Of a stretch of DNA of 22,787 nucleotides, positions 18,692 through 22,787 are shown in pieces. This DNA is from a virus, in the IMG/VR virus record IMGVR_UViG_3300027770_000270, positions 1-22,787 of that record. One strand, given 5' to 3'. The position numbers and the translations under genes were made by a program. Numbering within the stretch: the stretch's first letter is position 1; each line of letters starts with the position of its first letter. The notes below the pieces were generated by a model. It searched no databases. It was not told the DNA's origin and was given only the letters and a program-made list of their open reading frames with translations.

Positions 18692-19390
18692 TTAAGCCGA
18701 GAACATTTCTTCTATTGTTAATTCACCCAGGCTTTGCGGAGTAATCTGTTTAACGCCCCCAACTTGGCTCAACTCATAGTTAGCCATGGCTGCAAGATCG
18801 GAGTTCGCGCCCTGCGTAATTACCTGCGCCTTTGTATACTGACGCTCACGCTCAAGTGCATCTGCATGAGTTAAGGCAAGAACCAAGTGATGAACGTGGG
18901 GTAGGCGAAGTTCGTCACCAAGAGCGTCATTGGACGGAGGAAAGTCAACGATATAGTTGGAGCGAGTGATGCACTTTAACTTTTCAATAACTCGCAGTGG
19001 GATTGTTCCAGATGTTGCAAGCCTTGGATACAAGTCAAGCTCTGCAACGCCACTGCTGTTTCGACCTGTGAAATGGTATGTATCTGGATCGCCTGTTCGC
19101 TCATCGGATAGCAAGCCTGGGTCTTGGCTGATAATGGTGGCCAAATCAACAGGATCAACCTCGGCATCATTGTAAGCCACGGAAAGAGGGGTTTCTACAT
19201 TCGTGCCAAGCGTGATTGTGCGGCTTGTGCCAACAGAATAGGTGGAGTTGGTTACAGTCTCGCGCCAAGGGGCAAAGTCCCATACACGCCGATAAGCCAA
19301 GCTTGCGGCCTTTTGCAGAAAGGTAAGCGTGTCCGAGTCGGTCTTGCCAACCTTCTCGCCTGCGTACTGAGCGATTTCGGTTAGGGTCAT
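18692..19390 (-). CDS. Head-tail adaptor / tail tubular protein A (T7 gp11-like)
   Basis: The 232-residue product begins MTLTEIAQYAGEKVGKTDSD, then LTFLQKAASLAYRRVWDFAPWRET. This is the helical N-terminus typical of gp11-type adaptors, in which a helix is followed by the 'RIYDFRPWR'-like segment. A beta-rich middle (TITLGTNVETPLSVAYND, DTYHFTGRNSSGVAELDLYPR) and a helical end (LVLALTHADALERERQYTKAQ) follow. Such proteins form the ring between portal and nozzle. It starts immediately after the TAA of the preceding gene and precedes the nozzle-like gene by twelve bases. Assignment rests on pattern and gene order. Confidence 0.7.
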   Translation of the reverse strand: MTLTEIAQYAGEKVGKTDSDTLTFLQKAASLAYRRVWDFAPWRETVTNSTYSVGTSRTITLGTNVETPLSVAYNDAEVDPVDLATIISQDPGLLSDERTGDPDTYHFTGRNSSGVAELDLYPRLATSGTIPLRVIEKLKCITRSNYIVDFPPSNDALGDELRLPHVHHLVLALTHADALERERQYTKAQVITQGANSDLAAMANYELSQVGGVKQITPQSLGELTIEEMFSA

Positions 19391-19703: not shown

Positions 19704-21008
19704 TTATGATGCCATTGTTACCCAGCTTGTTCCATTAGAAACAAGTGTAGCCCATGATCCAGAGGCTGCTGGAAGAATTGCAGTTCCAGCCGTTGTTCCG
19801 TTTATTGGAACAACATTTGCTGACGCTGAAACAACTGTAAGAGCTTGAAGTGTTTTTATTGTAAACTCCCTGCCCGTCCATGACGAGGCAGCAGGAAGCG
19901 TAGCCGTACAACTTGTTGTGGCCTTATTTACAATAATCCAATTTTCAGTTGCGGCCAAAGTAAAGTCAGCAGTCTTTGTGACTGGCGCGCCACGGCCAAA
20001 GGAGCCTACAACTTCCAGTTTATTGACTGGTGCTGTTACCCCAATACCAACATCGCCCTTGTAATCAACACGGAGGCGTTCCAATACATTTCCAGACGTT
20101 GTCCTTGTTTGGAGTATCAAATTTCCAGCGGGTCCAGTTCCATTGTCAAGAAATCCTTTAATTCCTGCAAATATACCTGAAGAAGCCCCAAAAAGTATTT
20201 GACCACCATTCCCTTGAGATGCTCCTGTATCCTGAAGATACAAGGCTTGCCCGTCAGCATCTCCGTTTGTGTAACTACCAGATGTTGTTCCAGCACCTTG
20301 TACATGAATTTTTGCCTCAGGACTTGCTAGACCAATCCCAACATTGCCACTTGAATCAACAACAGCGAGTGCTGATCCTGCATTAAAATTTAATTTAAGA
20401 GCCGTGTCGTTTGCAGTATAACCCAATCTAAACTGATTGGTTCCGTCTGGACGATCAAATTGAATTGCGCCGCCAGTTGCTATGTGAAGTTTTGTCTGAG
20501 GACTCGTAGTCCCAATCCCAACATTGCCACTTGAATCCTTGTAAATCTGTCCGCTTCCAACATTCATTATATTTGTTGATCCAGTAATCGTTCCAGTTGC
20601 GACAAGCGTAGCAATCGTTCCAGTAGTGCTATTGAGCGTAGCTACTGTTCCAGTAGTGGAATTAAGGTTTGTAATCGTTCCAGTAGTGCTATTGAGCGTA
20701 GCCACAGTACCAGTAGTAATTGTTGCCGTAGATGAAGTTAAAGTCTGAATCGTCCCTGCCGTTGTATTGATCGTTCCAGTAAGCTCGGCCTTCATTACGT
20801 TAGCTACTGTCATGCGCTTGAGCGTATTCGAGTCAGAGGCATCACCAATTAGAAGGGTATCGTTTGTAGCTACAACTGTCTCAGCGGTACGATCCTGGAT
20901 AAGCCCAGAGGTTGGGGTTGCATTGGTAACTAGCGCACCTAGCTTGGCAGCTGTTACGTCATTTGCTACTCCGTCAACAAAGGTTGTTCCTGCGGTAAAT
21001 GAAGCCAT
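19704..21008 (-). CDS. Tail fibre protein with low-complexity and VGIG repeats, 434 aa
   Basis: The first ~75 residues (TAGTTFVDGVANDVTAAKLGALV) look like a fibre attachment region. Next comes a 10-residue repeat run (TGTVATLNST, TGTITNLNST, TGTVATLNST, TGTIATL). Then three copies of the motif (N/D)VGIG-xx-(S/A)P-xxK(L/I)xV follow: NVGIGTTSPQTKLHI, NVGIGLASPEAKIHV and DVGIGVTAPVNKLEV. The C-terminus is a beta-rich domain (TATLPAASSWTGREFTIKTL...) without a recognisable S74 chaperone. Such fibres are trimeric, and the C-terminal part would contact the host. A GGGAG ribosome-binding site stands before ATG 21008. Recognised as a fibre by composition and repeats. Confidence 0.75.
   Translation of the reverse strand: MASFTAGTTFVDGVANDVTAAKLGALVTNATPTSGLIQDRTAETVVATNDTLLIGDASDSNTLKRMTVANVMKAELTGTINTTAGTIQTLTSSTATITTGTVATLNSTTGTITNLNSTTGTVATLNSTTGTIATLVATGTITGSTNIMNVGSGQIYKDSSGNVGIGTTSPQTKLHIATGGAIQFDRPDGTNQFRLGYTANDTALKLNFNAGSALAVVDSSGNVGIGLASPEAKIHVQGAGTTSGSYTNGDADGQALYLQDTGASQGNGGQILFGASSGIFAGIKGFLDNGTGPAGNLILQTRTTSGNVLERLRVDYKGDVGIGVTAPVNKLEVVGSFGRGAPVTKTADFTLAATENWIIVNKATTSCTATLPAASSWTGREFTIKTLQALTVVSASANVVPINGTTAGTAILPAASGSWATLVSNGTSWVTMAS
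20332..20537 (-). repeat. 26-bp direct repeat encoding the SSGNVGIG motif
   Basis: Identical 26-base copies lie at 20332-20357 and 20512-20537 (ccaatcccaacattgccact and the next six bases). They encode DSSGNVGIG in two places. A third, diverged copy of the protein motif lies near 20040. Confidence 0.8.
20613..20702 (-). repeat. 30-bp exact direct repeats at 60-bp spacing in the fibre gene
   Basis: The same 30 bases occur at 20613-20642 and 20673-20702, starting aatcgttccagtagtgctat on the plus strand. A partly matching unit lies between them. They encode the TGTVATLNST-type decapeptide run. Exact copies a whole number of codons apart could add or remove 20 residues by recombination. Confidence 0.85.
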
Positions 21009-21023
21009 TGTATTATCTCCCTA

Positions 21024-21269
21024 TCAATTAAATCGGTTTTTGAGGACATCCCACGCCATTGAGCAGGCCAGCCCAACGACTCCAGCTACAGCCAAAACCT
21101 TCGTCTTTAAGGTTTCAAGCGCACCTAATCTATTAGCAACATCTCCGTGGAAAGCAAGTGACCTTTCAACACTCGAGTACAACGTAATCTGGCGTTCTTC
21201 CATGCGAACCAAACGCTCTGACACGCTAGAGACTTTCTCTCTAAGATCCGCTACCTCATCAAGACTCAT
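21024..21269 (-). CDS. Coiled-coil single-pass membrane protein, holin/XhlA-like, 81 aa
   Basis: Residues 1-50 are a charged helix with heptad-like hydrophobic spacing (VADLREKVSSVSERLVRMEERQITLYSSVERSL), and residues 57-75 (KVLAVAGVVGLACSMAWDVL) form one membrane helix near the C-terminus. This order, amphipathic helix then one helix in the membrane, is that of XhlA-type holin-associated proteins and of several phage holin-like genes. It comes directly after the spanin-like lipoprotein gene (four-base overlap), which supports a lysis role, though a virion membrane protein is not excluded. No strict family match can be shown. Confidence 0.55.
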   Translation of the reverse strand: MSLDEVADLREKVSSVSERLVRMEERQITLYSSVERSLAFHGDVANRLGALETLKTKVLAVAGVVGLACSMAWDVLKNRFN

Positions 21270-21397
21270 GGTTTAGTTGCCCCTAGGTCAGATGCTGCCC
21301 CCATATCCGAATATACAGGAAGCGGGTTATTGTCAACCTTGCGTGGCGAGCAGGAGGATAAAGCTATGCAGGATAAGGCTAGGCTAATAAATCGCAT
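21266..21397 (-). CDS. Small lipoprotein, spanin (Rz1)-like, 43 aa
   Basis: The frame begins MRFISLALSCIALSSCSPRK: a short basic start, a hydrophobic core and the lipobox LSSC, so Cys16 would be lipid-modified and the mature part is about 28 residues with three prolines. The length, lipobox and proline content match outer-membrane spanin subunits of the Rz1 type, which bridge the envelope in the last step of lysis. It overlaps the end of the upstream gene by 14 bases and its TGA overlaps the ATG of the holin-like gene (ATGA). No inner-membrane spanin partner is seen nearby unless the 81-residue protein acts as one. Confidence 0.6.
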   Translation of the reverse strand: MRFISLALSCIALSSCSPRKVDNNPLPVYSDMGAASDLGATKP

Positions 21398-22157
21398 ATT
21401 TAGTGTTTAGATACGCCTCTACCTGCTGGCGTTGTTGTGTTGTTAAAACTCTGTTATAAAATACAATTTCGGAAACTTTCCCCTTGAAAATCTGATCACT
21501 TCCAGCGTTATTCTGCATTCCAATATAAAGACTCGTATCATTTGCAATAGCATTTGAATAAACATTTGATGAATCAGAATAAAACTCTGTTCCGTTGCAA
21601 AATATCTTCCAATCATTATTTTGAGAATAAACGGAGCAAATGTTCCAGCTTGTAATTCCGCTTGGTAGCCCTAAATCATCTTTCCTTGAGTCAGTGGCAA
21701 AAGAATCATAAACTGAATTTGCAAGGCCAAAAGGCCAATGACTGCCATCCGCTGCACTTCCGAAATTACCGAGCAACGCTCCGTTTGCATTATCTCCAAA
21801 TACTTCTGGATCAACATAGTTAACTACAAATGCTGTTGCTCCAGAAGCTCCCATCGGATTTCCGCTAATTTGAAGAGATTTGTTTGTTCCACCAGCTACC
21901 GATGATAGGCTGATGGTTGGTTTTCCATTTAAGTCTGAAGAGTTATAGGTAGGGCTAATATCTACTGGTGTTGCGTTTCTTCCATTCCCACTCTGATCTG
22001 CCCATGCTGTTACATTTGAGCCTAATAAAGTAACTCCTGCATCAGCCTTTAGCCACATGGATAAGCCAGATAAATCGGATGGTGAGAACGGAGCAGATCC
22101 TCCAATCTTAATTCTTCGCAAGTTCTGGACTCCTAAACCTAGAGATAATCTTGGCAT
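21384..22157 (-). CDS. LamG/concanavalin-A-like adhesin with shared N-terminal tag, 257 aa
   Basis: After MPRLSLGLGVQNLRRIKIGG the sequence becomes a LamG (concanavalin A-like) jelly-roll. It opens with LSMWLKADAGVTLLGSNVTAWADQSGNGRNAT, continues with DWKIFCNGTEFYSDSS, and closes with GKVSEIVFYNRVLTTQQRQQVEAYLNTKY, the common end of such domains. These domains bind carbohydrates, so the protein is a candidate head or tail adhesin. The first 11 residues equal those of the next gene upstream. ATG 22157 lies two bases after that gene's stop and has no ribosome-binding site. Confidence 0.75.
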   Translation of the reverse strand: MPRLSLGLGVQNLRRIKIGGSAPFSPSDLSGLSMWLKADAGVTLLGSNVTAWADQSGNGRNATPVDISPTYNSSDLNGKPTISLSSVAGGTNKSLQISGNPMGASGATAFVVNYVDPEVFGDNANGALLGNFGSAADGSHWPFGLANSVYDSFATDSRKDDLGLPSGITSWNICSVYSQNNDWKIFCNGTEFYSDSSNVYSNAIANDTSLYIGMQNNAGSDQIFKGKVSEIVFYNRVLTTQQRQQVEAYLNTKYAIY

Positions 22158-22161
22158 AAAA

Positions 22162-22644
22162 TCAAACAGCAGTGATGGTGATGGATGGAGACCAGCCAGA
22201 GGTGGGGATTATTGTTTCATCTGTGGATGAATTATTGCTTGAATTAACAAATTGAAAATCATCTGTCTCGCCTGAAAGACCATAAACCTTACCAGCCCTC
22301 CAAAATGTTTCAGATGGAAGTGGATTAAAAAATGTTGCTGTGAATGTTGTGTTTGGTGGAATAAGAATATGTCCGTATGGCGAGGTCGGATAATCGCCAT
22401 CTCCATATCCAGCTTCTTTTAAGTAGACCAAGCCAGTAGCTATAAACATTTTATCGCTGATAAGAGATCCAGCGACCCTTGTTATTATTGATGTAACTTT
22501 TGTATATGTTCCAGTTGGAACAACGATATTATTGCCAGATATATTAACTGCGTTTGTGGTGGCTACAACAAGAGGTCCTGCTGATGCGCCACTCTTAACC
22601 TTACTAACGGCTTGCACGCCCAAGCCTAAAGATAGTCTTGGCAT
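22162..22644 (-). CDS. Tagged beta-rich structural protein of unknown function, 160 aa
   Basis: The product begins MPRLSLGLGVQAVSKVKSGASA, the same tag as its downstream neighbour. A beta-rich domain follows (VNISGNNIVVPTGTYTKVTSIITR, GHILIPPNTTFTATFFNPL), and the protein ends in SPSITITAV. No catalytic motif or known fold signature was recognised. It may be a virion decoration or adhesin that uses the tag for attachment. The frame is open to 22659 with a TTG, but ATG 22644 is where the shared tag begins. No ribosome-binding site is visible. Confidence 0.6.
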   Translation of the reverse strand: MPRLSLGLGVQAVSKVKSGASAGPLVVATTNAVNISGNNIVVPTGTYTKVTSIITRVAGSLISDKMFIATGLVYLKEAGYGDGDYPTSPYGHILIPPNTTFTATFFNPLPSETFWRAGKVYGLSGETDDFQFVNSSNNSSTDETIIPTSGWSPSITITAV

Positions 22645-22706: not shown

Positions 22707-22787
22707 TTAACCAGCTATGTAGCCGATCACCTTGCCAGTTCCAGCCGTGTAGCTGTCAAACTCGCCATAGATGATGTTGCCAGAGCC
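22707..22787 (-). CDS. C-terminus of a gene cut by the window edge
   Basis: The last 27 codons of a minus-strand gene enter from the right edge: GSGNIIYGEFDSYTAGTG, then KVIGYIAG and TAA. The residues are beta-strand and turn rich. The position upstream of the tail module would suit a capsid, decoration or scaffold-region gene, but 26 residues are not enough to name it. Confidence 0.5.
   Translation of the reverse strand, partial: GSGNIIYGEFDSYTAGTGKVIGYIAG

Follow-up and report, generated by a model that had tools for sequence, protein, structure and literature searches.

Short N-terminal peptides that dock variable proteins on a virus particle are already known, both from tail receptor-binding proteins and from the star peptide of the gene transfer agent RcGTA. 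In RcGTA, the head fibre inserts its residues 2-10 (IALGLGLGL) into the pentameric base Rcc01079, where they take up five hydrophobic pockets in the shape of a five-point star, with one fibre per base pentamer, eleven vertices occupied and the remainder of the fibre flexible (PMC7296036), and these head fibres mediate attachment to the capsule (PMC7296036, PMC10218006). The receptor-binding proteins of phages K1-5, K1E and SP6 and of Klebsiella phages KP32 and KP34 dock varied domains through an N-terminal peptide of 7-11 residues, which differs between phage groups (PMC6872550). The adenovirus fibre tail in its penton base has also been discussed as a model for phage capsid fibres (PMC12796354).

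The window analysed here, the whole 22,787-base stretch of an IMG/VR virus record, carries two neighbouring tagged genes, A and B, at its right edge on the minus strand (Table 1). An initial annotation had reported that both proteins start with the same 11 residues, MPRLSLGLGVQ, with seven codons synonymously changed, and our codon-by-codon comparison confirms it: ATG, CCA, AGA and TCT are common to both tags and the seven other codons differ, all synonymously. The weak similarity it described up to about residue 22 holds as well, and so does the lack of relation between the remaining parts, described as LamG and an unknown beta domain. Gene A has a Laminin_G_3 match in Pfam (PF13385; 32.1 bits against a curated cut-off of 27.6, E 1.5e-7), and gene B, with no significant match in Pfam or PHROG, carries an unnamed beta domain. 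In the AlphaFold2 model of B, residues 24-160 form a well-folded beta domain and the tag is disordered; Foldseek gave no significant PDB match for this domain and VIA gave none above Z 3.5, and the domain is a member of a large group of small beta domains that occur behind tags. Gene A starts 4 nt past the stop of gene B, and a degenerate pattern of the tag is found only at these two places in the window and in 0 of 100 shuffles. The 43-aa lipoprotein-like gene downstream is kept between the cassettes and f1 in most relatives; it could encode a small outer spanin, whose holin-like partner would be f1.

Table 1. Features at the right edge of the window, in minus-strand order: f0 end, B, A, lipoprotein-like gene, f1 and tail-fibre gene
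Feature	Position	Strand	Remarks
f0 3' end, proposed head-spike base (socket)	22707-22787	-	last 26 codons, rest beyond window edge; last 26 residues GSGNIIYGEFDSYTAGTGKVIGYIAG, the 79-aa f0 of loci L078 and L141 ends in the same residues
Cassette gene B, 160 aa	22162-22644	-	tag, linker and beta domain of the ...STD..IPTSGWSPSITITAA family
Docking tag of B, MPRLSLGLGVQ (putative)	22612-22644	-	hydrophobics at residues 2, 4, 6, 8, 10
Linker of B, residues 12-24	22573-22611	-	pLDDT <50 for residues 6-21
Cassette gene A, 257 aa	21384-22157	-	tag, linker and LamG (concanavalin A-like) domain
Docking tag of A, MPRLSLGLGVQ (putative)	22125-22157	-	7/11 codons differ synonymously from those in B
Linker of A, residues 12-24	22086-22124	-	
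43-aa lipoprotein-like gene	21266-21397	-	starts MRFISLALSCIALSSCSPRK...; overlaps both neighbours
f1, 81-aa coiled-coil/hydrophobic protein	21024-21269	-	
Tail-fibre gene	19704-21008	-	

We consider it highly probable, with docking deduced by analogy to RcGTA, that f0 serves as a capsid-vertex socket, the tag as its plug and the cargo as exchangeable adhesins. The tag would be an N-terminal docking peptide for f0, the small head-spike base encoded immediately upstream, and f0 would, judging from its structure, form a pentamer on capsid vertices. Residues 2, 4, 6, 8 and 10 of one tag would fill the five pockets of this pentamer, like residues 2-10 of the RcGTA fibre, and the docked cargo (LamG, BspA-LRR or small beta domain) would be left free to contact cell-surface ligands; the heads of these cassettes would be sugar- or protein-binding, and the LamG and BspA-type LRR folds are hints at polysaccharide binding. 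The disorder predicted by AlphaFold2 at residues 6-21 of B is as expected for a peptide that becomes ordered on binding. The two tagged genes of the window would compete for the same sockets, so that a virion would carry a mix of both heads. The idea raised in the initial annotation, that the tag is a docking signal for different adhesins in a modular decoration system, is supported, and its proposed site of attachment, capsid or tail, can be narrowed to the small upstream base protein and, following RcGTA, to capsid vertices.

A degenerate DNA pattern for MPRLSLGLGV recovered 88 stretches from IMG/VR, with tandem copies 330-490 bp apart in many of them, so the tag is present on other phage proteins and, as had been suggested for a search of this kind, many unrelated C-terminal domains follow it. 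The gene order common to these loci is major capsid protein (MCP, phrog_1357), f5, f3, f2, f0, one or two tagged genes, f1, fibres and tail genes. Since this set had been picked by the tag itself, the test was rerun on loci picked by f0 alone: a gene starts 50-75 nt after f0 in 77/80 of them, and 77/77 of these genes carry a tag of this type (MPRLSLGLG(V/A/I)Q, MPSLSLN(I/V)GLNN, MPQLGLG, MPSLSLALG, MPRLALGLG or MPQNGLLLS). Exactly two cassettes are present in 25 of the 73 loci that have both f0 and f1 in view. Outside IMG/VR, the tag and the f0, f0LGLGL and f20 proteins had no tblastn match in 50,697 phage records, a search for which a 26-residue query is weak. In GTDB genomes the tag pattern occurred in 13 stretches, and those inspected were chance matches in short or unrelated frames, with no prophage; the LamG relatives in cyanophage KBS-S-2A and Rheinheimera phage Barba26A start differently and do not carry the tag.

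In the MPR-tagged genes of the f0-selected set, pS and pN were 0.638 and 0.053 over codons 4-11, 0.533 and 0.284 over codons 12-16, and 0.626 and 0.429 over codons 17-22. As judged from these codon comparisons, purifying selection acts strongly on the peptide over codons 4-11, with low pN and free synonymous sites, which bears out the earlier claim that the peptide itself is selected. Very improbably, the shared start is a nucleic-acid feature, either an initiation element that works without a Shine-Dalgarno (SD) sequence or a recombination site, and the peptide is inert. Such a reading would account for ATG CCA AGA being nearly invariant DNA (codons 2-3 are CCA in 82/84 and AGA in 80/84 across the family) and for the rarity of SD motifs upstream. 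No clear SD precedes gene A or gene B, as initially reported for ribosome-binding sites, and this is general among tag genes: at least four SD bases were found before 15% of first and 3% of second tag genes and before 100% of the f2 and tail-fibre genes counted, some other genes being without SD too. From codon 4 on, however, synonymous sites are free while the peptide is kept, cargo swaps have their breakpoints within the linker, 40-60 nt past the ATG and outside the tag DNA, and the MARYGYG and MNLGLGL tags differ in DNA but keep the same alternating pattern of hydrophobic residues. A DNA-level or initiation signal beyond codon 3 was rejected because synonymous change is free there with the peptide kept, and the extra constraint on codons 2-3 is probably tied to initiation, since SD motifs are rare upstream of cassette genes. 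The first 9 nt of the cassette genes, ATGCCAAGA (window 22149-22157 and 22636-22644), are almost invariant DNA, with later codons varying freely, and may form part of the initiation signal. Nor does gene conversion account for the identity of tandem tags, because tags differ by 4.6 codons on average within a genome and by 4.4 between genomes.

The cargo behind the tags includes two kinds of LamG, BspA-type LRR (LRR_5, E 2.5e-111), small beta domains and others, joined to the tag by a flexible Gly/Pro/Ser linker. Under a strict rule, 190 non-redundant cassettes contain 45 cargo clusters, and 14 of the 20 multi-member clusters sit behind at least two tag families. Scanning for the linker/domain start APSGIPVAST revealed more tags on the same cargo (MARYGYG, M(N/R)LGLGLRL, MPKLGLG, MGFFASS, MIVKKTK and MAFIVKR). 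Cargo domains 84-99% identical in DNA are found behind different tags in unrelated phages, with the similarity beginning at the linker, which in gene B corresponds to residues 12-24. The cargo DNA of L121 (tag MNLGLGL) and L139 (tag MARYGYG) is 98.8% identical from the linker on, with unrelated flanks; L059 and L139 share 84.5% DNA identity from linker to stop codon; and L014 and L190 match at 95% over the gene and its surroundings, with one tag substituted for another. Among related lake viruses, heads are freely exchanged behind the same plug.

A simple recent gene duplication, with the C-terminal parts diverged and the start kept by descent, would explain adjacent genes with the same start and the common occurrence of tandem pairs (25/73), and we give it almost no weight. 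At synonymous sites the two tags differ as much as tags from random genomes do, unrelated cargo (LamG, LRR_5, beta domain) lies behind one tag and one cargo lies behind many tags; for the family as a whole, the cargo swaps refute such a duplication.

Two further observations concern the genes around the cassettes. The tail gene f7 (232 aa, window 18692-19390) has long versions in L004, L008, L028, L033, L039, L071, L079 and L086, which carry an insertion of ~80 residues (QVILSGAG..SNGTYTRTS...) that resembles domains within tagged cassettes, up to E 5e-11, so the cargo pool would also enter a tail protein. In L195, L199, L201 and L217, a 266-aa protein that starts MSKTIHFVSGLPRAGSTLLMNLLAQN and looks like a sulfotransferase adjoins cassettes with the cargo start ITTS(K/R)AFN of the LRR group.

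Scans with two other platform proteins, the small proteins encoded upstream of cassettes, added further lineages. Across 190 non-redundant pairs the adjusted mutual information was 0.81-0.83 for platform and tag, 0.17-0.19 for platform and cargo and 0.21-0.23 for tag and cargo; the type of tag goes, on this measure, with the upstream platform protein and not with the cargo. Since platform and tag are neighbours, part of their association reflects shared inheritance, and cases that cross lineages count most for this reason. In L122 the main capsid backbone is kept (MCP 95%) and f0 is not present; its f20 is of the usual kind in the N-terminal half and of another kind in the C-terminal half, and the cassette tag is MGFFASS. 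In L123 no main-type MCP was detected; this locus shares with L122 the f20-B-type C-terminal domain (36%, E 6e-10) and the MGFFASS tag. In L048 an f0-like domain ends a 225-aa protein, MPRLSLGLGV follows 4 nt later and no other shared genes were detected. M(P/A)(L/I)(F/Y/T/V) tags come after type A f20 in the main lineage and again in L139, although the major capsid proteins of the two are unrelated. For most f0LGLGL and f0MARY platforms the cassette lies within about 30 nt. The tag subtypes MPRLSLG, MPSLSLN and MPSLSLA all occur with the same f0 type, so the pairing is at the level of the family and not of the subtype.

The f20 proteins (137-138 aa) head a second platform-cassette pair, in which ~10 nt separate f20 from genes with M(P/A)(L/I)(F/Y/T/V) tags and other cargo; such genes stand directly after f20 in L003 (2334-3072), L021 (7710), L056, L062, L091, L107, L139 and others. 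Comparison of f0 between L014 and L190 shows similarity over the C-terminal two thirds and N-termini of different type (MSADTDRFGARNGF versus MSRALDKFQ), and f0 appears from this to be a mosaic, as though a putative capsid-binding end and the remainder recombined separately.

The AlphaFold2 model of f0 is beta-rich, with a pLDDT of 87.5, and its top VIA match is 6tb9_A1, at a modest Z of 6.7 (rmsd 3.3, 73 residues aligned to an 84-residue chain; unrelated enzymes reach 5.8). The 84-residue sequence of 6tb9 is annotated as the head spike base Rcc01079, which is a small jellyroll. A Carin1 capsid chain is the second match (Z 5.8), so that the two best matches are both capsid-associated, and a chain of the HFTV1 turret structure is among the others (Z 4.1). 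Foldseek alone found no PDB match for f0 at E <0.001, a profile search of PDB sequences with f0 did not match Rcc01079, and distant f0 proteins diverged too far in alignment to be used for a profile scan. The hydrophobics of the window's tag, P2, L4, L6, L8 and V10, stand at the same positions as those of the RcGTA fibre peptide. Five or more hydrophobics in alternation occur in 98% of 88 f0-linked and 86% of f0MARYa-linked cassettes; no f20-linked cassette has such a run (0%), and the frequency is 3.9% among other N-termini and 1.6% among shuffled tags. The MMIKGGIRIGG family, linked to f0MARYb platforms, fits the alternation poorly (16% at four or more), and since the f20-linked tags are without the five-fold pattern, their docking chemistry is probably different.

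The tag might also dock proteins to the tail, as an adapter or branching domain of a tail-fibre complex. This is unlikely, though it has the precedent of short conserved N-terminal peptides followed by different C-terminal domains (PMC6872550) and the tail-fibre genes f11 and f4 lie two or three genes downstream. Against it, the tag type follows f0- or f20-type proteins, which are encoded between the major capsid gene and the cassette, the two best structural matches of f0 are capsid-associated chains and the alternating pattern fits the capsid-vertex peptide of RcGTA; moreover, tag and platform are both different in L122 while the surrounding head genes are conserved.

Pairs of a small base and an alternating peptide were also found outside the f0 family. 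The exact RcGTA peptide after ATG was found in none of 385 alphaproteobacterial genomes, and a scan for M-x-x-LGLGLGL recovered unrelated phages with such a fibre right after a small protein, which in L316 and L338 matches Rcc01079 by sequence (E 0.0018). Among five phage records with a relative of this Rcc01079-like base, the next gene starts with an alternating peptide in three: MIGLGLDLSL in Verrucomicrobia phage P8625, annotated with a concanavalin A-like lectin domain; MYIGLGISL in Flavobacterium phage immuto, where the base comes directly after the major capsid gene; and MLAGLSLGMGI in ctsTn925. In the two others the next gene is without a star peptide.

A capsid-vertex socket and plug of the kind proposed here would resemble the RcGTA head spike (Rcc01079 and Rcc01080; Bardy et al. 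2020, PMC7296036; 6tb9) in its small beta-rich base, in hydrophobics at residues 2, 4, 6, 8 and 10 between small residues, followed by a flexible part and a binding domain, and in the adjacency of base and fibre genes, which for RcGTA is read from the locus numbers Rcc01079/Rcc01080. The differences from RcGTA are that f0 and Rcc01079 are not similar in sequence, that a single genome often has two fibres per base, that cargo is exchanged between phages behind conserved tags, and that platform and tag types change together. The receptor-binding proteins of K1-5, SP6 and the Klebsiella phages likewise join different receptor-binding or enzyme domains to an anchor by a short N-terminal peptide, but those peptides attach large depolymerases to tail anchors of the T4gp10-like or adapter type, whereas the tags described here lie with capsid-side genes, have a five-fold alternating pattern and carry small lectin-like domains. 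Adenovirus, too, fixes a variable receptor-binding protein on a pentameric vertex protein by means of a short conserved N-terminal tail, although the fibre is trimeric, the proteins are unrelated and the peptide chemistry is other, which makes it an analogy only. The HFTV1 turret (8qpg; PMC12494034) is a similar two-part capsid protrusion with a small base and an exposed head bearing a carbohydrate-related domain; it differs in a hexameric base on hexons and a trimeric head, and it is not known to have a star peptide.

New in the present family are how widely cargo is exchanged behind a conserved plug, a pairing between types of plug and types of socket, and the presence of cassettes in tandem for a single socket; none of this was found described in the open-licence literature. 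If, as in RcGTA, each vertex takes up only one docked protein, mosaic virions are predicted for genomes with such tandem cassettes. It is possible, and we put it forward only tentatively, that this is a general plug-and-socket display in uncultured aquatic phages, in which exchangeable f0 and f20 sockets define the plugs, a common pool of adhesins circulates among unrelated phages and genomes with two plugs of one kind give mosaic virions. It would be testable whether two tagged proteins share the vertices of one virion and whether the peptide alone is sufficient to place a chosen protein on the capsid. If the proposal is true, the few vertices of a particle would carry random mixtures of heads, and one genotype would yield particles of different binding specificities. 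The peptide contact of one gene transfer agent would become a sequence rule by which probable capsid-vertex adhesins can be recognised in phages that only metagenomes have revealed, with a direct route to annotation for proteins now labelled hypothetical or tail fibre, and it would suggest how phages trade binding heads while the capsid stays unchanged.
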